Notes under the pieces: generated by a model | What the model was told of the DNA's origin: nothing | Databases searched by the model: none | Seen by the model: only the letters and a program-made list of their open reading frames with translations | Made by a program: the position numbers and the translations under genes | Assembly (NCBI RefSeq): GCF_004345605.1 | Contig: NZ_SLVY01000004.1 | Location: forward strand, 1-64,000 | DNA: 64,000 bases | From: Rhodococcus sp. SMB37 | GTDB taxonomy: Bacteria > Actinomycetota > Actinomycetes > Mycobacteriales > Mycobacteriaceae | Direction of reading: 5' to 3' | Part shown: positions 19,429 to 26,959 of the stretch, piece after piece | Layout: each line of letters begins with the position of its first letter | How positions within the stretch are numbered: position 1 is the stretch's first letter

Positions 19429-19774
19429 CCGCTGCTTTCCCGCGCGCGAGCCGGTTGTGGTCCATCGCGATCGCGACCCAGTAAGACAGGCTCTCGTCGT
19501 CGCGGATCGCTTCCGCAGCGACGTCGATCCAGCCGGGGCCCATCGTGCGTCCGGCGCCCATTTCGGCCTGCGTCGCTCCGGGTCTGCTGAGGAGCTCGTC
19601 GTGTCGGTCTGCGGCGACGCGCACCAGCAGACCACCGTCTTTCAGCGCGCTGACGACCATTTTCTCGTCGACCATGAACGCTCGACCGCCGAACATCGAT
19701 ACCTCGCGCGTCACCGACTCCGCGTCGAGCAGTTCGCGGAGGCGTTCGATCAGGGCAGTCTGCGCGGCAGTCAT
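19391..19774 (-). CDS. TfoX N-terminal domain protein
   Basis: The protein is 127 residues from ATG 19774, overlapping the stop of the SRPBCC gene (ATGA). The TfoX_N signature 'EVSMFGGRAFMVDEKMVVSA' and 'GLLVRVAADRHDELLSRPGA' is clear, and 'SYWVAIAMDHNRLARGKAAV' ends the domain. Stand-alone TfoX_N proteins in actinobacteria are not linked to competence; they often accompany ArsR-SRPBCC pairs, as here. It is the third gene of a leftward ArsR-SRPBCC-TfoX operon. Confidence 0.88.
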   Translation of the reverse strand: MTAAQTALIERLRELLDAESVTREVSMFGGRAFMVDEKMVVSALKDGGLLVRVAADRHDELLSRPGATQAEMGAGRTMGPGWIDVAAEAIRDDESLSYWVAIAMDHNRLARGKAAVKARTGARSRGV

Positions 19775-20226
19775 CAGCGCCTCCTTGGGCCATCCTGCTC
19801 GAGCGGCTGCCACTCGTCCGGTCCGGCGTCGCCGCCGGAGCCCGCGGTGGCCAGACGGGGGAGAAAATGTGCCCACCCGTGGGCGTGCCCGGGCACTTCG
19901 GTGTCGGGAAGGTCGGAGTGGATGAGGTCGACGCGGGTGCCGCCGGCAACGGCGGTGAGCCGGAACTCGACCGTCGATGCTCCGACGGGCAGGACCGTGT
20001 TCCCCACAAATCCCCACGAGACGACCACCCGAGTGGGGTGGTCGACGTGAAGATACTCGCCGCGCACCGGATATCCGGCGATGTCGACGGCGAAGCTGCC
20101 GCCGGGTCGCGGGTCGAGTTCGGCATACTGGCCCATCCACGCTGTCATCCCGGAGTTCGTGGTGAGGTACTCGAACACCGTCTCGGGAGACGCGGCAATG
20201 TCGATCGAATCTCGGAACTCAGCCAT
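19774..20226 (-). CDS. SRPBCC (AHSA1-type) domain protein
   Basis: The protein is 150 residues ('MAEFRDSIDIAASPETVFEY' at the N-terminus; 'WGFVGNTVLPVGASTVEFRL'; 'GTRVDLIHSDLPDTEVPGHA'). This is the START/Bet v1-like fold of the AHSA1 family, with a hydrophobic ligand cavity. It is encoded directly after an ArsR regulator with an 8-bp overlap, a very common pair in actinobacteria. The ligand is unknown. Confidence 0.9.
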   Translation of the reverse strand: MAEFRDSIDIAASPETVFEYLTTNSGMTAWMGQYAELDPRPGGSFAVDIAGYPVRGEYLHVDHPTRVVVSWGFVGNTVLPVGASTVEFRLTAVAGGTRVDLIHSDLPDTEVPGHAHGWAHFLPRLATAGSGGDAGPDEWQPLEQDGPRRR

Positions 20227-20554
20227 GGTTCTCGGCCTCCCTCGCCTCGATCACGGTCTTGAGCGCGGACAGCTTCCGCGGCCAGAAATCGTCGAGGTAC
20301 GAACGCACCGCGGCAAGACCGTCGGTGTCCACTGCGAACAGATGGCGTGTGCCGTCGCGAGTGCTGGCTGCGAGGCCCGCTTTCCGGAGCACGCCGAGGT
20401 GGTGCGACGTCGTCTGTTGGGACAATCCGACTTCCTCGGCGATGGAACCCACCGGGTGTGGACCGGAGCGAATGACCCGTAGGATCGCCCGCCGGTTCCC
20501 GTCGGCAAGCGCCCGCAACGCACTGTCGAGGTTCACCGCGGCCTCGGCACCCAT
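20219..20554 (-). CDS. ArsR-family winged-helix repressor
   Basis: The protein is 111 residues from ATG 20554, which has GGAGG 6 bp upstream; a GTG at 20581 lacks one. The HTH reads 'VGSIAEEVGLSQQTTSHHLG' and the wing 'AASTRDGTRHLFAVDTDGLA'. No metal-binding CxC motif is seen in the recognition helix region, so it is not an obvious metal sensor. It heads the SRPBCC-TfoX operon and probably represses it through the palindrome at 20591-20606. Confidence 0.9.
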   Translation of the reverse strand: MGAEAAVNLDSALRALADGNRRAILRVIRSGPHPVGSIAEEVGLSQQTTSHHLGVLRKAGLAASTRDGTRHLFAVDTDGLAAVRSYLDDFWPRKLSALKTVIEAREAENHG

Positions 20555-20590
20555 TGTTCGCCTCCGCTCGTCGAGTGTCACGACAATAAC

Positions 20591-20686: not shown

Positions 20687-22021
20687 CTATCCGACCACCG
20701 CACTGTGCCTGTGTGGCAGTGCCGGCACCTCCAGCTCCAGCGAATCGCGCAAGGTTCTGCCTGGGTACTCGGTGCGGAACAGGCCGCGACGCTGCAATTC
20801 CGGCACCACGAGGTCGACGAAGTCGTCGAGGGAATCCGGGTAGGCAGGGCACATCAGGTTGAAGCCGTCGCAGGCACCGGCGACGAACCACTCCTCGATT
20901 CGGTCGGCGATCGACTCGGGTGTGCCGATCATGGTGGCGTGACCGCCGCCGGCAGCGAGAAATCCGAGCAGCTCTCGCAGGGTCGGTCGTTGCGTCTCGA
21001 TGATTCGTTGCACCGTCGCGTACCGCCCCTGTGGGCCGGTGAATTCCGAGATGGGCGGCAGGTCCGAGACCGGAGCGTCGAGGTCGTGGCCGGTGTAGTC
21101 CTGGCCGGTGAAGGCCCCGAGCTGGGCGAGTGCGCCCTCGATGTCGAGATACGCGTCCAATTCCGACTTCTTCGCCTGCGCTTCGTCGTCGGTGCGTCCG
21201 ACGTAGGTGACGAGACCGGGCAGGATCGCGATCGATGTCGCGTCACGTCCTGCGGCGGCGGTGCGGGCACGTAGGTCGGTGGCGAATTCGAGCGCCGCCG
21301 GAAGATCCCAGGCAACCGAATACACGGCCTCGGCGTGGCGGGCCGCAAGGTCACGTCCGGTGTCCGAGGCGCCGGCCTGGAACAACACCGGGCGTCCTTG
21401 CGGGCAGCGCGGCACCGTGAGCGGACCGTCCACACTGAAGTGCCTGCCGCGGTGATCGATCCGGTGGACCGCGGCGGCATCGAGGAAACGCCCGGCCGAA
21501 CGGTCCGCGATCACGGCGTGCTCGTCCCACGAATCCCACAGCGCGACAATCGCGTCGATGAACTCCTCCGCCCTTCCGTACCGTTCGGCGTGGGCAGGCA
21601 ACGAACCGAATCCGTGGTTGCGGGCTTCGGCGTCGAACATCGATGTCACGATGTTGGCGCCGGCGCGTCCACCGCTGATGTGATCGAGCGACGCGAGCAT
21701 GCGTGCCGCGTGGAACGGCGTGTAGAAGCTTGCTGACACCGTGGTGACCAGCCCGATCCTCTCGGTGGCCCGCGCCATCGCCGACAGCGCGGTGATCGGT
21801 TCGAGAAACCACGTCGTGCCTGCCGTATACGCGGGGTTCACACTGTGGCCGTCGGCGAAGAACACCGCGTCGAGGCATCCCCGCTCGGCGGTGCGTGCGA
21901 GTTCCTCGAAATAGGCGATATCGCCGATGCGCTCCGCGGCGGAGTCCGGGTGCCGCCACGCCGAAGAATGGTGGCCGGTGCCATATAGAAATGCGTTGAG
22001 ATGCAGGGTGCGCACCGCCAT
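20687..22021 (-). CDS. LLM-class flavin-dependent monooxygenase (NtaA/SnaA/DszA type)
   Basis: The protein is 444 residues, the usual size for the NtaA/SnaA/DszA branch of bacterial-luciferase-like enzymes. Motifs include 'LHLNAFLYGTGHHSSAWRHP', 'RGCLDAVFFADGHSV', 'RIGLVTTVSASFYTPFHAAR', 'SGGRAGANIVTS' and 'GRPVLFQAGASDTGRDLAAR'. These enzymes use FMNH2 from a separate reductase and O2 to oxidise C-N or C-S bonds. The ATG overlaps the SDR stop (TGATG), so both genes are on one mRNA behind a TPP riboswitch. That regulation suggests a substrate related to thiamine, its pyrimidine or its thiazole. The precise reaction is unknown. No reductase partner lies nearby. Confidence 0.88.
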   Translation of the reverse strand: MAVRTLHLNAFLYGTGHHSSAWRHPDSAAERIGDIAYFEELARTAERGCLDAVFFADGHSVNPAYTAGTTWFLEPITALSAMARATERIGLVTTVSASFYTPFHAARMLASLDHISGGRAGANIVTSMFDAEARNHGFGSLPAHAERYGRAEEFIDAIVALWDSWDEHAVIADRSAGRFLDAAAVHRIDHRGRHFSVDGPLTVPRCPQGRPVLFQAGASDTGRDLAARHAEAVYSVAWDLPAALEFATDLRARTAAAGRDATSIAILPGLVTYVGRTDDEAQAKKSELDAYLDIEGALAQLGAFTGQDYTGHDLDAPVSDLPPISEFTGPQGRYATVQRIIETQRPTLRELLGFLAAGGGHATMIGTPESIADRIEEWFVAGACDGFNLMCPAYPDSLDDFVDLVVPELQRRGLFRTEYPGRTLRDSLELEVPALPHRHSAVVG

Positions 22022-22797
22022 CAGTTCATCACCAGTCCGCCGTCGACGACGAGGTTCTGCCCGGTGACCGCGCGCGACCAGTCGGACGCGAAGAACAACA
22101 CGGCGGCGGCGAAATCCTCCGGAGTCGTGACCTTACGCAGCGGTGTCGAGCCGGCGATCAGGTCGAAGACCTCCGGGGGTGTAGCGGACGATGCATCGGT
22201 GGTGCGCAGGAGCCCGCCCGACACCATGTTCACGCGGATGCCTTCGGGGCCCAGATCCGCAGCGAAAGTACGGGTGGTCGACAGCAGCGCCGCTTTGGCT
22301 GCGGTGTAGTCGTGGTACGGCACGACCGGGTTCTGGAACAGGTTGGTCCCGATGTTGACGATGCTGCCTCCGCCGGCTTCCCGCATTCCCGGCAGAGCGG
22401 CCTGGATGGTGTTCACTGCACCACCGACGATGCCTTCGAGCTGGGCTGCAAACGCGCCGTAGCCGATTCGATCCGCTTTTTCGCGGGCGTCACCGTTGAA
22501 CGAGAAGTCGGGCAGGGCGTTGTTCACCACGGTGGTCACCGGACGGCCGAAATGTTCGCGCGCGCGCTCGAACACAGCCTCTACTTGTGTGCGGTCGGTG
22601 ACGTCGGCCTGCACGGCAATCGCGCGTTCGGTGCCGATGCTCTCGGCGAGAGCGCGGGCCGTGTCGCTGCTGCGCCGGTAGTTCACGACGACGGACGCGC
22701 CTTCGTCCGCGAAAGCCTGTGCGATGCTGCGGCCGAGCCCTCGACCGGCACCGGTGACCAGGACGATCCGATTCTCCAGCGATGTTGTTGTGGGCAT
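22021..22797 (-). CDS. SDR oxidoreductase in a TPP-riboswitch operon
   Basis: The protein is 258 residues from ATG 22797, which follows AGGGAAGG. It is a classical SDR: 'VLVTGAGRGLGRSIAQAFAD' (NAD(P)-binding), a Ser-Tyr-Lys triad with 'YHDYTAAKAALLSTT', and 'NMVSGGLLRTTD'. It is of the FabG-like 3-oxoacyl-ACP-reductase type by sequence, but not in a fatty-acid cluster. The riboswitch region lies 67 bp upstream, and translation is coupled to the flavin monooxygenase. It may process the alcohol or aldehyde made or consumed by that enzyme. The substrate is inferred only from the thiamine-type control. Confidence 0.88.
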   Translation of the reverse strand: MPTTTSLENRIVLVTGAGRGLGRSIAQAFADEGASVVVNYRRSSDTARALAESIGTERAIAVQADVTDRTQVEAVFERAREHFGRPVTTVVNNALPDFSFNGDAREKADRIGYGAFAAQLEGIVGGAVNTIQAALPGMREAGGGSIVNIGTNLFQNPVVPYHDYTAAKAALLSTTRTFAADLGPEGIRVNMVSGGLLRTTDASSATPPEVFDLIAGSTPLRKVTTPEDFAAAVLFFASDWSRAVTGQNLVVDGGLVMN

Positions 22798-22810
22798 TGT
22801 CGTGACGCCT

Positions 22811-22829
22811 TCCCTTCGGACCGAAGGGA
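22811..22829 (-). promoter_or_regulatory. SD-sequestering hairpin of the TPP riboswitch
   Basis: The perfect 9-bp repeat TCCCTTCGG / CCGAAGGGA (22811-22819 with 22821-22829) lies in the leader of the SDR gene, and its downstream arm runs into the ribosome site (AGGGAAGG). Its upstream arm can also pair with the GCGAAGGGA of the aptamer core (22872-22880). This gives two exclusive structures: ligand-bound aptamer with hidden ribosome site, or open ribosome site without ligand. Confidence 0.7.
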
Positions 22830-22863
22830 TACGCAGGCGGCATCGGACCGGTGGTCTGTCGCC

Positions 22864-22946
22864 GACTCGGCATCCCTTCGCTCGCATGATCGAGATCAGG
22901 TGCTACGGGTGTGTTCTCAGCCGTGTCCGGCACCCCGTGTCGAGTT
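22864..22946 (-). promoter_or_regulatory. TPP riboswitch (THI element)
   Basis: Read on the minus strand, the aptamer shows GGGGTGCC, then a GCCG/CGGC P3 stem, CTGAGA, ACCC, ACCTGATCT, ATCATGCGAGCG and AAGGGA in the canonical order and spacing. P1 pairs ACTCG (22941-22945) with CGAGT (22865-22869). P5 pairs CTCG with CGAG. The core matches the actinobacterial form of the thiamine pyrophosphate aptamer. It lies upstream of the SDR-monooxygenase operon. A TGCTAACCT -10-like element just upstream (about 22956-22964) would start transcription at the aptamer. Confidence 0.93.
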
Positions 22947-22990
22947 TCCAACGCCAGGTTAGCATCTCGATTCGACCATGCTGCAGTGCG

Positions 22991-23585: not shown

Positions 23586-24353
23586 TCATTCCCACCGGAA
23601 GAGCGCAGCTGCGACCACGACACCGACCACGATCGTCACGCCGAGCGCGGCGAAGTGGGCCGGGTCTGCGGGGCTTCCCGCCCAGGCTGCGGACATGGCC
23701 TCGACCGAGGCGCCGAACGGCAGCCACTCTCCGACCGTCGCGACCGGGTCGGGGAGCGCGTCGCGGCTACCGAACAAGCCGCCTGTCGCGCCCAGGGCGA
23801 AGAAGGCGACAAGTCCGATCGCCACCGCGGAGTTCGGCGTCGGGGACACTGCCGCGACGATCATTCCCACGGCGTACATCGCCGCCATCGCGAGCACGAA
23901 CACACCGACGGCGGTGCCGAGATGCACGGGGGGACTGGCGTCGAAGAAAGCAGTGGCGACGACGATCGCTACACCGAGCCCGACCAAGGTCTGCAGCACG
24001 CTGACCACGACCTGGGCCACCAGGACCATCGCGGGCGACGCCGGCGTCACCGACAGTCGTCGCAGAATGCCCGTGCGCCGGTAGTACGCGAGGAAACTCG
24101 GCATATTGATGACGCCGATCGAGGCAATGATGATCGTGAACACCAGTGGGAGCACGAAGACATCCAGCACAGTGCGCCCGTTCGCCACTTCTTCGGTGCT
24201 CGCCGACGAGGCACTCATCACCAGGATCAGCAGGGGAAGGCCGATCGGAACGACGAGACCCGCCGTGTCGCGTGCGACCATCTTCGCCTCGCACACGATC
24301 AGCGTGAGCCAGGCAGCGGGCCCCGGACGATAGGTTTCGACCACGGTGCTCAT
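23586..24353 (-). CDS. ABC-2 type transporter permease
   Basis: The protein is 255 residues with six predicted helices and the ABC-2 pattern ('NMPSFLAYYRRTGILRRLSV', 'GATGGLFGSRDALPDPVATV'). The start overlaps the ATPase stop (ATGA-like). With the upstream ATPase it makes a DrrAB-like exporter, commonly for drugs or lipids. The divergent histidine kinase-regulator pair probably controls it, as in many actinobacterial ABC/NarL-type systems. The substrate is unknown. Confidence 0.9.
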   Translation of the reverse strand: MSTVVETYRPGPAAWLTLIVCEAKMVARDTAGLVVPIGLPLLILVMSASSASTEEVANGRTVLDVFVLPLVFTIIIASIGVINMPSFLAYYRRTGILRRLSVTPASPAMVLVAQVVVSVLQTLVGLGVAIVVATAFFDASPPVHLGTAVGVFVLAMAAMYAVGMIVAAVSPTPNSAVAIGLVAFFALGATGGLFGSRDALPDPVATVGEWLPFGASVEAMSAAWAGSPADPAHFAALGVTIVVGVVVAAALFRWE

Positions 24354-25102
24354 TCCGTCTCCTCCAGTTCTCGTCCGGTGAGCGCGACGAACGCGTCGTC
24401 GAGGTTCTCCGCCGCCGCTCGTGCGACGAGGCCGTCCGGGGTGTCCAGTGCGACGATGTTTCCTGCGTCGAGCAGCGCCACGCGGTCGCAGAGGTGCTCT
24501 ACCTCTTCCATCGCGTGGCTGACCAGCAGAACTGCGACGTCGTCGCCGCGCAGACGCTCGATCGTCTTCCACATCTGTCGCCGCGCGCGGGGATCGAGGC
24601 CGGTGGTGAGTTCGTCGAGGATGACCACACGTGGTCGTCCGACGAGGGCGAGCGCGATCGACAGCCGCTGCTGCTGGCCGCCGGAAAGCTTCTCGAACCG
24701 GATGCCGCGTTGCTCGGTGAGGCCGACCATCTCCAGAAGTTCGCAGGCAGGCATGGGTTTCGGATAGAAGGTGCGATACAGCCCGACGAGCTCGGCGACG
24801 GTCAGCGAACCGTGCAGGGTGGCCTGCTGCAACTGAACACCCAGAACCTGACGGAGGCGGGAGCGGTCACGGTGCGGATCGAGGCCGAGGACACGCACAC
24901 GTCCCCCATCGGGATTCCGCAATCCCGCGACCATCTCGACGGTCGTGGTCTTCCCCGCGCCGTTCGCGCCGACGATGCCGAGGGTCTCGCCGATTCCGAG
25001 TGTGAAGCTCATGTCGTCGACCGCGACCTTGTCGCGGTACCGCTTGTGGAGGTGTTCGGCAACGATCGCCTGTGGAGTGGTGCCCGGGGCGCTGGTGTCC
25101 AT
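24350..25102 (-). CDS. ABC transporter ATP-binding protein
   Basis: The protein is 250 residues with Walker A 'GANGAGKTTT', Q-loop 'LGVQLQQATL', signature 'LSGGQQQRLSIAL', Walker B 'VVILDELTTGLDP' and H-loop 'LLVSHAMEEV'. It is of the drug-efflux (DrrA-like) type. It is the first gene of the leftward operon ATPase-permease-DUF998 and diverges from the kinase gene across 112 bp, so the promoter region is shared. Confidence 0.93.
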   Translation of the reverse strand: MDTSAPGTTPQAIVAEHLHKRYRDKVAVDDMSFTLGIGETLGIVGANGAGKTTTVEMVAGLRNPDGGRVRVLGLDPHRDRSRLRQVLGVQLQQATLHGSLTVAELVGLYRTFYPKPMPACELLEMVGLTEQRGIRFEKLSGGQQQRLSIALALVGRPRVVILDELTTGLDPRARRQMWKTIERLRGDDVAVLLVSHAMEEVEHLCDRVALLDAGNIVALDTPDGLVARAAAENLDDAFVALTGRELEETE

Positions 25103-25214
25103 GACTCCGACGTTAGGAGCCGAGCGTGGGTGATCGCGCGTGCCGGATGTCAGGGATGCCGACCATGACTTTCGGCACCCGCCCGGTGTCGCGGTCGCGG
25201 CTTAGAGTGGTGAC

Positions 25215-26318
25215 GTGCATCGATGGACACCAGAAGGGCTGTCGGGCGTGGCGATGCTCGTCGTCTCGGTCGTGGTGGGCGGGCCGGTACTGTTCGGCGC
25301 CGCTCGGACGGAGATCCCGCGCGCCGTATGGATCGTGCTGTTCGGTGTCCTGCTTGTCGCCCTCTTCGCCGCCGCTGTGACCACACGTCCATCCACGATC
25401 GGCAAGGCGTCGTGGGCGGTGGCGGTCGTCGCGGCATGGGCTGTGGTGTTGACCGCGCCGGAAATGGGTCTGCTTCCGATTCTGCTGGTCGTCGTCGCAG
25501 CCGTGAGCGTCTACGTCGTGCCGGTTCGTATCGGCCTGATCGTGGTGGCGCTCAATACCCTCGTCATCGGGTTGGCCACGGCGCAGCAGACCGGTGATGC
25601 GGGTGCGACGATGCTGACCGGAGGCTTCTACCTCTTGATCCAGCTGGCGACGGTGTTCAGCTCGGTGTCGCTGTTGCGGGAGCAACGAATGCGGCGAGAG
25701 TTGACGGAGGCCCATGTCGAGTTGCAGGCCGCGACCGTCCTGCTGTCGGAATCTGCGCGCACCGCCGAACGATTGCGGATCTCCCGCGACTTGCACGACC
25801 TCATCGGTCACCAGCTCACTGTTCTCGCGCTGGAACTCGAGACGGCGCGGCATCGAGACGGTGAGCGGGCCCGTGAACATGTCGAGCGAGCGAACCGAGT
25901 CGCGCGGGAGTTGCTCGCCGATGTCCGGTCCACGGTGGGGGAACTGCGAGTCGAGCCACTCAACCTCGCAGCCGCCCTGGAGCAGGTGGTGCGCGACCTT
26001 CCCGGGCTCGATGTGCAGATCGACGTCGCACCCGACGTGGATGTCGGAGAAGAGCACGCGGCCGCTTTCGTGCGTGCTGTGCAGGAGATCGTGACGAACG
26101 TTCTCCGCCACGCCGATGCGCGCGTGCTCCGAATCGAGATCTCGTCGGAGGGCGGCGGTGCTGTCCTGTCCGCGGTGGACGACGGTGCCGGAACCCGCAA
26201 GCTGCGTGTGGGCAACGGTCTCCGAGGCATGGCCGAACGGTTCGAGGCCCTCGGTGGGCATGCCACCTTCGACGGGAACCGCGGTTTCCGGGTCAGGGCG
26301 TGGGTACCGGCCTCATGA
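25215..26318 (+). CDS. NarL-type sensor histidine kinase
   Basis: The protein is 367 residues from GTG 25215. It has an N-terminal membrane domain with about five helices (to residue 155). A short coiled region leads to the HisKA_3 phospho-site 'ISRDLHDLIGHQLTV' and a HATPase domain ('EIVTNVLRHADARVLRIEIS', 'DDGAGTRKLRVGNGLRGMAE'). The topology resembles DesK/LiaS-like intramembrane-sensing kinases that watch membrane state or antibiotics. It is translationally coupled to the regulator (ATGA) and divergent from the ABC exporter, its likely target. Confidence 0.92.
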   Translation: MHRWTPEGLSGVAMLVVSVVVGGPVLFGAARTEIPRAVWIVLFGVLLVALFAAAVTTRPSTIGKASWAVAVVAAWAVVLTAPEMGLLPILLVVVAAVSVYVVPVRIGLIVVALNTLVIGLATAQQTGDAGATMLTGGFYLLIQLATVFSSVSLLREQRMRRELTEAHVELQAATVLLSESARTAERLRISRDLHDLIGHQLTVLALELETARHRDGERAREHVERANRVARELLADVRSTVGELRVEPLNLAAALEQVVRDLPGLDVQIDVAPDVDVGEEHAAAFVRAVQEIVTNVLRHADARVLRIEISSEGGGAVLSAVDDGAGTRKLRVGNGLRGMAERFEALGGHATFDGNRGFRVRAWVPAS

Positions 26319-26959
26319 TCCGTGTCGTGGTGGTGGACGACCAGACACTCGTGCGGCAGGGGATCACGAGTCTGCTGGAGGTCGCCGAGATCGAGGTGGT
26401 CGGTGAGGCCGACGACGGCCGTGCGGCCCTCGGCGTCATCTCGTCGACCCGCCCGGATGTGGTTCTGCTGGACCTCAGAATGCCCGGGTACGACGGAATC
26501 TGGACGCTCGAACAACTGCGTGAGCAGGACACGGCGGTGCCGGTGCTCGTGCTCACCACCTTCGACGATGATGCACTCGTACTCGATGCGCTCCGCGCCG
26601 GAGCTCGCGGGTACCTGCTCAAGGACGTCACTCTGGACCAGCTGACGCACGCGGTGCGCACACTGGCCGACGGTGGCACACTCATCGCCCCGTCGATCAC
26701 CGACCGCCTGCTCCGGGCGATCCGATCCGGACCGTCCCCGACCGGGCCCGACGCCTCGCCCGCGCAGGACCTCACCGACCGCGAACTGGAGGTACTGCGC
26801 CTGATGGCAGCGGGCTTCGGCAACCGTCGGATCTCCGAGGCGTTGTTCCTCGCGGAGGGCACGGTCAAGAATCACGTCTCCTCGATTCTGCTCAAACTGG
26901 GAGCCCGCGACCGCACCAACGCGGTACTGAGAGCGCTCCACGATGGAGTTCTGCGCTGA
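26315..26959 (+). CDS. LuxR/NarL-family response regulator
   Basis: The protein is 214 residues. The receiver domain has 'VVVVDDQTLVRQGITSLLEV', phospho-Asp in 'VVLLDLRMPG', and 'YLLKDVTLDQL'. The LuxR helix-turn-helix 'LTDRELEVLRLMAAGFGNRR' with 'EGTVKNHVSSILLKLGARDR' follows. It pairs with the kinase gene it overlaps and probably activates or represses the divergent ABC-DUF998 operon. Confidence 0.94.
   Translation: MIRVVVVDDQTLVRQGITSLLEVAEIEVVGEADDGRAALGVISSTRPDVVLLDLRMPGYDGIWTLEQLREQDTAVPVLVLTTFDDDALVLDALRAGARGYLLKDVTLDQLTHAVRTLADGGTLIAPSITDRLLRAIRSGPSPTGPDASPAQDLTDRELEVLRLMAAGFGNRRISEALFLAEGTVKNHVSSILLKLGARDRTNAVLRALHDGVLR

Follow-up and report, generated by a model that had tools for sequence, protein, structure and literature searches.

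The operon and its riboswitch

The locus described here lies in a 64-kb stretch of the Rhodococcus sp. SMB37 genome (contig NZ_SLVY01000004.1, positions 1 to 64,000), referred to as the window. It consists of a thiamine pyrophosphate (TPP) riboswitch aptamer followed on the minus strand by two genes, the first encoding a short-chain dehydrogenase/reductase (SDR) and the second a flavin mononucleotide (FMN)-dependent monooxygenase of the luciferase-like monooxygenase (LLM) class (Table 1). A preliminary description of this DNA had proposed a TPP aptamer directly before an SDR-then-LLM operon, and both parts of that proposal were borne out. The match to Rfam model RF00059 exceeded the gathering cutoff and covered the model in full (1 to 105 of 105), with an E value of 8.9e-11 for a search of both strands of the window. 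The SDR scored 427.6 bits against NF006393/PRK08642 (curated cutoff, 292), and the LLM scored 541.5 bits against TIGR03860, the NtaA/DmoA family (curated cutoff, 279.7). The SDR stop codon shares one base with the LLM start codon (TGATG at positions 22023 to 22019), which is consistent with a single operon.

The spacing between the aptamer and the SDR is 58 nt, and a hairpin over the ribosome-binding site (RBS) is predicted there. The SDR frame is open from an ATG at 22887, within the aptamer. This start was rejected on account of its position and because the alignment of homologues favored the ATG at 22797, which is the likely start.

Table 1. Coordinates of the riboswitch operon in the window
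Feature	Position	Strand	Basis
TPP riboswitch aptamer	22856..22947	minus	RF00059 covariance-model match, 66.1 bits versus gathering cutoff of 54.3
Putative expression platform	22798..22855	minus	Predicted RBS-covering hairpin (GGGAAGG); folds with and without the aptamer
SDR oxidoreductase, PRK08642 family, 258 aa	22021..22797	minus	NF006393, PF13561; start from homologue alignment
LLM class FMN-dependent monooxygenase, NtaA/DmoA family, 444 aa	20687..22021	minus	TIGR03860, PF00296

Conservation of the aptamer and gene pair

Within the genus, aptamer, SDR, and LLM remain a unit while the flanking genes change. In a panel of 61 genomes, 18 of them from Rhodococcus, the SDR was present in 12 of the 18, and all 12 carriers had the order aptamer-SDR-LLM; this count includes G004, a genome 75% complete in which the LLM was matched over residues 1 to 332 only. 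Clustering of the neighboring families placed the pair in at least three different settings. The possibility of a chance aptamer was rejected, as the unit is conserved in the genus and beyond it, and its presence in all 12 SDR-bearing genus genomes makes a chance occurrence very unlikely. Five further panel genomes, from other genera of the family, carry the SDR at 65 to 71% identity: three of these have a TPP aptamer and no adjoining LLM (G022, G027, and G033), and two have no aptamer at that position (G025 and G029). A linear plasmid of Rhodococcus sp. DMU1 (716 kb, typed mobilizable) carries a further aptamer-SDR-LLM copy (L062:5851-8087). In R. ruber NBRC 15591, tandem TPP aptamers about 200 nt apart precede the SDR and LLM (L038:6649-7036 and L068:7562-7949), an arrangement said to occur in <1% of leaders with TPP or adenosylcobalamin aptamers (PMC2258182, excerpt).

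To cover other phyla, genomes were scanned with an SDR alignment, one genome per species, and the best 80 of at least 586 relatives were taken as named loci. Aptamers were sought in these loci with a covariance model built from 33 TPP aptamers, and LLM adjacency was counted by tblastn, giving 50 of 80 where open reading frame calling had given 43. In 55 of the 80 loci the SDR was directly preceded by a TPP aptamer, a rate that is not unbiased because 9 of the 11 rows of the query alignment were TPP linked. Internal to this sample is the contrast between the loci in which an LLM adjoins the SDR, 49 of 50 having the upstream aptamer, and those without an adjacent LLM, where 6 of 30 have it. The conservation of the riboswitch with the gene pair thus extends from the genus to the cross-phylum sample. 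The pairing of SDR with LLM, as it was first described, is kept, but the SDR also stands behind a TPP aptamer without an LLM, both in the latter 6 of the 80 loci and in the thiMED operons described below. Close SDR relatives in Lysobacterales that have neither a TPP aptamer nor an LLM include those at L073, L077, L081, and L095.

The Rfam model served as a check on these aptamer calls because 7 of the 9 TPP-bearing plasmid loci had been in the training set of our own model. RF00059 recovered a TPP aptamer in 16 of 16 sampled positives and in none of 10 sampled negatives. The aptamer-SDR-LLM unit was found in Actinomycetota, Pseudomonadota, and Bacillota, and the genera carrying it include Rhodococcus, Arthrobacter, Paeniglutamicibacter, Kocuria, Cryobacterium, Marinobacter, Halomonas, Marinomonas, Alcaligenes, Pollutimonas, Methylobacillus, and Sporosarcina. 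Among 11 plasmid loci, 9 had a same-strand TPP aptamer before the SDR, and the 2 without it were both from Caballeronia; adjacent SDR and LLM genes behind an aptamer were carried on plasmids in Pseudochrobactrum (Alphaproteobacteria) and Mesobacillus (Bacillota).

The LLMs that accompany the SDR also form a group of their own. In a tree of 54 SDR-linked LLMs (one of which, L116, is without an aptamer) and 16 paralogues, the SDR-linked set fell on one side of a branch with a Shimodaira-Hasegawa-like approximate likelihood ratio test (SH-aLRT) support of 100, and 21 positions separate it from the 16 paralogues. The Sporosarcina LLM clustered with two Arthrobacter LLMs (100/99, in a first tree that had one paralogue row in the wrong frame), which suggests transfer between phyla.

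Direction of the switch and thiamine genes of the carriers

The predicted folds suggest a switch that is turned off by TPP. In the window, the leader folded alone is predicted to form a hairpin over the RBS; in the ligand-free fold predicted for aptamer plus leader, GAAGGG of the aptamer pairs with the 5' arm of the hairpin. In 13 Rhodococcus leaders (that of the window and 12 others; the start of L040 was one base off), the leader folds were predicted to pair at least 4 of the 5 bases of the RBS GGGAA in 12 cases, and the competing pairing between aptamer GAAGGG and leader, at 4 or more of 6 bases, was predicted in 10 of the 13 ligand-free folds. The Mesobacillus locus has, instead, a 13-bp terminator with a T run after the aptamer (1 found, against 0.1 in shuffles), and the 5' arm of this terminator, ACTTTCCTA, is complementary to TAGGAAAGT in the 3' strand of the aptamer. 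Taken together, the RBS hairpins and the terminator suggest OFF designs, as far as such modeling goes.

Several of the gene contexts in which the SDR occurs are related to thiamine. The SDR is the fourth gene of a TPP-thiM-thiE-thiD-SDR operon in two records, from Gemmobacter and Neorhizobium, and no LLM is present in those operons. In loci L083 and L106, both of the Arthrobacter group, thiM is divergent from the SDR and headed by a TPP aptamer, and L083 has thiD further along. A family of 479 to 555 residues, F2, was encoded within 6.5 kb of the pair in 20 of the 80 loci, divergent or convergent to the SDR and LLM (for example, in L089, L105, L120, and L121), and a TPP aptamer stood at the head of 19 of these 20 genes. 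The two F2 members run through Pfam were both sodium/solute symporters (SSS; PF00474). ThiV, the likely transporter of 4-amino-5-hydroxymethyl-2-methylpyrimidine (HMP) in Pelagibacter, is a TPP-controlled SSS symporter (PMC11452348, excerpt), and by analogy the F2 symporters may transport HMP. No neighbor family other than the LLM and the SSS symporter occurred in >13 of the 80 loci, few of those families having been identified.

A different partner precedes the SDR in two further loci. An SDR of 49 to 51% identity follows a TPP aptamer, LuxE, and LuxC in Pantoea (L065:3149-6756) and Azospirillum (L064:654-6780); the Azospirillum locus has, in between, genes for an ABC transporter whose binding protein is of NMT1/THI5 type. 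LuxE and LuxC activate acids and reduce them to aldehydes. The position of the SDR behind this acid-to-aldehyde pair would therefore make an aldehyde-to-alcohol step the common denominator of the SDR contexts.

A genome search located two further TPP sites in the genome from which the window is taken. The first heads thiO-thiS-thiG and has thiE on its divergent side; the second (L050:9651-12301, contig C3) precedes a TenA-family gene, beyond which lies a gene for an ABC permease. ThiM is present, and a search found no ThiC. With thiazole genes but no ThiC, this genome is, by these searches, without the usual pyrimidine enzyme.

To tell the pyrimidine half from the thiazole half, thiamine pathway genes were counted in 50 carriers, namely, the 12 genus genomes and 38 of the 49 named loci having both TPP aptamer and LLM. 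Two of the 49 were left out as apparent repeats (L068 of G002 and L069 of G007), and nine (L072, L085, L097, L112, L122, L127, L134, L136, and L138) were excluded by hand, with no prior rule, as metagenome-assembled genomes, near-duplicates, or short drafts. The ThiM and TenA searches covered 49 carriers, made up of the 38 named ones and every genus carrier except G004 (11 of 12). ThiC was scored as present in G096, where it is in three pieces, and as absent in G091, which has a 54-residue piece in a short frame; ThiM matches below the cutoff in G069 and G073 were scored as absent. ThiG was found in 50 of 50 carriers, and ThiC was absent from 28 (8 of the 12 genus and 20 of the 38 named carriers). 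ThiM was over the cutoff in 30 of 49 carriers and absent from 19, and 10 of the 38 named carriers lacked both ThiC and ThiM. A thiazole-salvage module would be odd in these carriers because they have ThiG and often cannot phosphorylate the free thiazole alcohol, and this favors the pyrimidine half over the thiazole half as the target of the pair. The gene contexts agree with the earlier suggestion that the operon serves to salvage thiamine that is degraded or modified; the thiazole option of that suggestion is less favored than its pyrimidine option.

Two other features flank the operon in the window. Just downstream, at 19774 to 20581, an ArsR-type repressor gene is followed by one for an AHSA1/SRPBCC protein. 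At 23586 to 26959, ABC-2 permease and ATPase genes are divergent from those of an apparent histidine kinase and response regulator, and these may perhaps make up a sensor-controlled exporter.

Proposed role of the pair

We hypothesize, with roughly even confidence, that the operon is TPP repressed and salvages the pyrimidine half of thiamine. At low TPP, the 3' strand of the aptamer would sequester the 5' arm of the RBS hairpin by base pairing, and translation would be on; with TPP bound, the hairpin would close and the SDR and LLM would be off. Enzymes of the NtaA and EmoA type oxidize the carbon beside a nitrogen, and an aldehyde is released. By analogy to the action of NtaA and EmoA on their amines, the LLM, using FMNH2 and O2 with a flavin reductase supplied in trans, would hydroxylate the CH2 that joins the pyrimidine to nitrogen. 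Its putative substrate would be a thiamine breakdown product, such as 4-amino-5-aminomethyl-2-methylpyrimidine (AmMP), its formyl-amino counterpart (FAMP), or oxidized thiamine. The hemiaminal would collapse to 4-amino-2-methylpyrimidine-5-carbaldehyde, which the SDR could reduce with NADPH to HMP; ThiD would then phosphorylate HMP and ThiE would couple it to thiazole made by the cell itself. Where relatives have no LLM, as in the thiMED operons, the SDR would receive the aldehyde from the environment, and in Pantoea and Azospirillum the aldehyde would come from acid reduction by LuxE and LuxC. The wider proposal is made more tentatively, at rather less than an even chance: that in three phyla an O2-dependent pyrimidine salvage operates in which this LLM clade frees the pyrimidine-5-carbaldehyde and the SDR turns this aldehyde into HMP, and that a rescue of the carboxylate through LuxE and LuxC ends in this SDR step as well.

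The enzyme families are compatible with these steps. Solved relatives of the LLM include YtnJ, the nitrilotriacetate and EDTA monooxygenases, DszA, and riboflavin lyase. Those retrieved with the SDR profile include pyridoxal 4-dehydrogenase, an enzyme that works on a similar ring-CH2OH/CHO pair. The thiamine context speaks against 3-oxoacyl-ACP reductase, the name that NF006393 carries, for the SDR.

A number of points weigh against the pyrimidine reading. Concerning the switch, the hairpin over the RBS-like GGGAAGG, when the window leader was folded alone, is not exceptional relative to shuffles (z score of -1.45, with 16 of 200 shuffles as stable; z score for the whole leader, -2.03). The ligand-free folds give no fully freed RBS, because 2 to 5 of its 5 bases stay paired in all 13 leaders, and these leaders are related, two of them being identical over the folded stretch. 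Concerning the enzymes, the SDR departs from the classical Asn-Ser-Tyr-Lys set: in an 11-row alignment N93, Y164, and K168 are invariant and Thr151, also invariant, takes the place of the usual Ser. The Pfam assignment stands, and Thr151 may serve in place of Ser. The aptamer and the operon unit are read from the sequence; the chemistry of the pair and its substrates are drawn by analogy, and the same two enzymes could act on the thiazole side. Neither aptamer nor LLM was found in 24 of the 80 SDR loci, largely those of Lysobacterales. ThiC is present in 22 of the 50 carriers, and its loss in 8 of 12 genus carriers versus 10 of 36 thiG-positive panel genomes without the SDR gave a one-sided P value of 0.02 that is not corrected for descent; inside the genus, the comparison was 8 of 12 versus 2 of 6 (P = 0.20, likewise uncorrected). 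Taken by itself, the association with ThiC loss is not strong enough to support the pyrimidine case. TenA is the known route from AmMP. It was over the cutoff in 45 of 49 carriers, its matches being weak and partial in 7 of the 11 genus genomes, and the pair would therefore be an addition to TenA. Finally, in the excerpt of PMC10269752 on R. ruber ZM07, thiL is the thiamine gene named as thiamine responsive, upwards, and the SDR-LLM pair is not mentioned.

Were the pair to act on the thiazole side, the LLM would open or trim a modified thiazole and the SDR would reduce a thiazole acetaldehyde to hydroxyethylthiazole for ThiM. The SDR does occur inside thiM operons and divergent from thiM, the DszA-type relatives of the LLM cut C-S bonds, and ThiM is over the cutoff in the 30 carriers noted, the genome of the window included. 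We nevertheless regard this as unlikely, since ThiG occurs in all 50 carriers and the 19 without ThiM could not use free hydroxyethylthiazole unless the substrate were already phosphorylated. A role in the repair or detoxification of oxidized thiamine or antivitamins (oxothiamine, thiochrome, and the methoxy and oxy analogues), which would yield usable vitamin incidentally, is improbable to a similar degree. The combination of an oxygenase and a reductase would suit it, and Microcystis has been reported with antivitamins and thiamin oxidation products (PMC12345177, excerpt). An OFF switch, however, would express the genes at low TPP and not at a high analogue load, and among the neighbors, few of whose families were identified, the LLM and the SSS symporter alone recur in >13 of the 80 loci.

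A role outside thiamine metabolism, as a metabolic bypass or an unrelated catabolic pair when TPP-dependent enzymes fail, could be accommodated by the breadth of both families. It is made distinctly unlikely by the operons and divergent starts that the SDR shares with thiM, thiE, and thiD and by the adjoining SSS symporters, which mostly have their own TPP aptamer. An O2-dependent replacement of ThiC for de novo HMP synthesis would account for the 28 carriers that have ThiG and lack ThiC, but the other 22 keep ThiC, and strain ZM07 of R. ruber is auxotrophic for thiamine (PMC10269752, excerpt). In R. ruber NBRC 15591 the pair is present and ThiC is missing, so that, assuming that ZM07 carries the pair as NBRC 15591 does, the auxotrophy leaves this explanation very little probability. 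Least credible is an ON switch, by which the pair would degrade thiamine when TPP is plentiful: oxygenases are often catabolic, and the ligand-free folds, as predicted, leave the RBS partly closed, but the RBS-covering hairpins of the genus and the Mesobacillus terminator, with its 5' arm complementary to the aptamer 3' strand, predict the opposite direction.

Relation to known systems

The proposed pyrimidine salvage resembles that of base-degraded thiamin (ThiXYZ, YlmB, and TenA; Jenkins et al. 2007, cited in PMC5627462, excerpt) in that HMP would be recovered from breakdown products under TPP control. It differs in that TenA and YlmB are hydrolases, whereas a flavin monooxygenase and an SDR are present here. 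The operon holds the SDR and LLM genes only, without tenA or ylmB; ylmB was not searched for in the rest of the genome. The rhizobial ThiM-ThiE-ThiD salvage operon (Karunakaran et al. 2006, referenced in PMC5627462, excerpt) likewise has a TPP aptamer, and the SDR family stands fourth in its Gemmobacter and Neorhizobium counterparts; those operons are without a monooxygenase, and that of the window is without kinases. The window LLM, being over the TIGR03860 cutoff, belongs with the NtaA/EmoA/DszA/YtnJ group, but the SDR-linked LLMs are set apart from it by their separate branch, their 21 clade-specific positions, and the TPP aptamer heading 49 of 50 adjacent pairs.

The preliminary description knew of no characterized pair of this kind, and our literature search agrees with it, having found no description of an SDR-LLM pair; the survey of Rodionov et al. 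from 2002 was outside that search. This survey reportedly lists a THI-regulated oarX, a putative 3-oxoacyl-ACP reductase, for which no monooxygenase partner or function is known to us. This oarX may be of the same family as the SDR, in which case one half of the pair would already have appeared in a list. A search for oarX gave no thiamine paper among the matches listed. Genes behind TPP riboswitches that were not identified have been mentioned for metagenomes (PMC2211319, excerpt).

The system would be one of TPP-controlled thiamine salvage using enzymes not known to us in that role. HMP auxotrophy is described as the commonest vitamin B1 auxotrophy (PMC11452348, excerpt), and measurements of dissolved FAMP in a coastal system gave 16 to 112 pM (PMC10881298, excerpt). 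The recurrence of the switch and the enzyme pair in unrelated bacteria points to an undescribed recovery of the pyrimidine when vitamin B1 runs short. If this is true, the label 3-oxoacyl-ACP reductase on this SDR group would be called into question, and a new enzyme pair that makes usable vitamin would change predictions of who feeds on whose vitamin.

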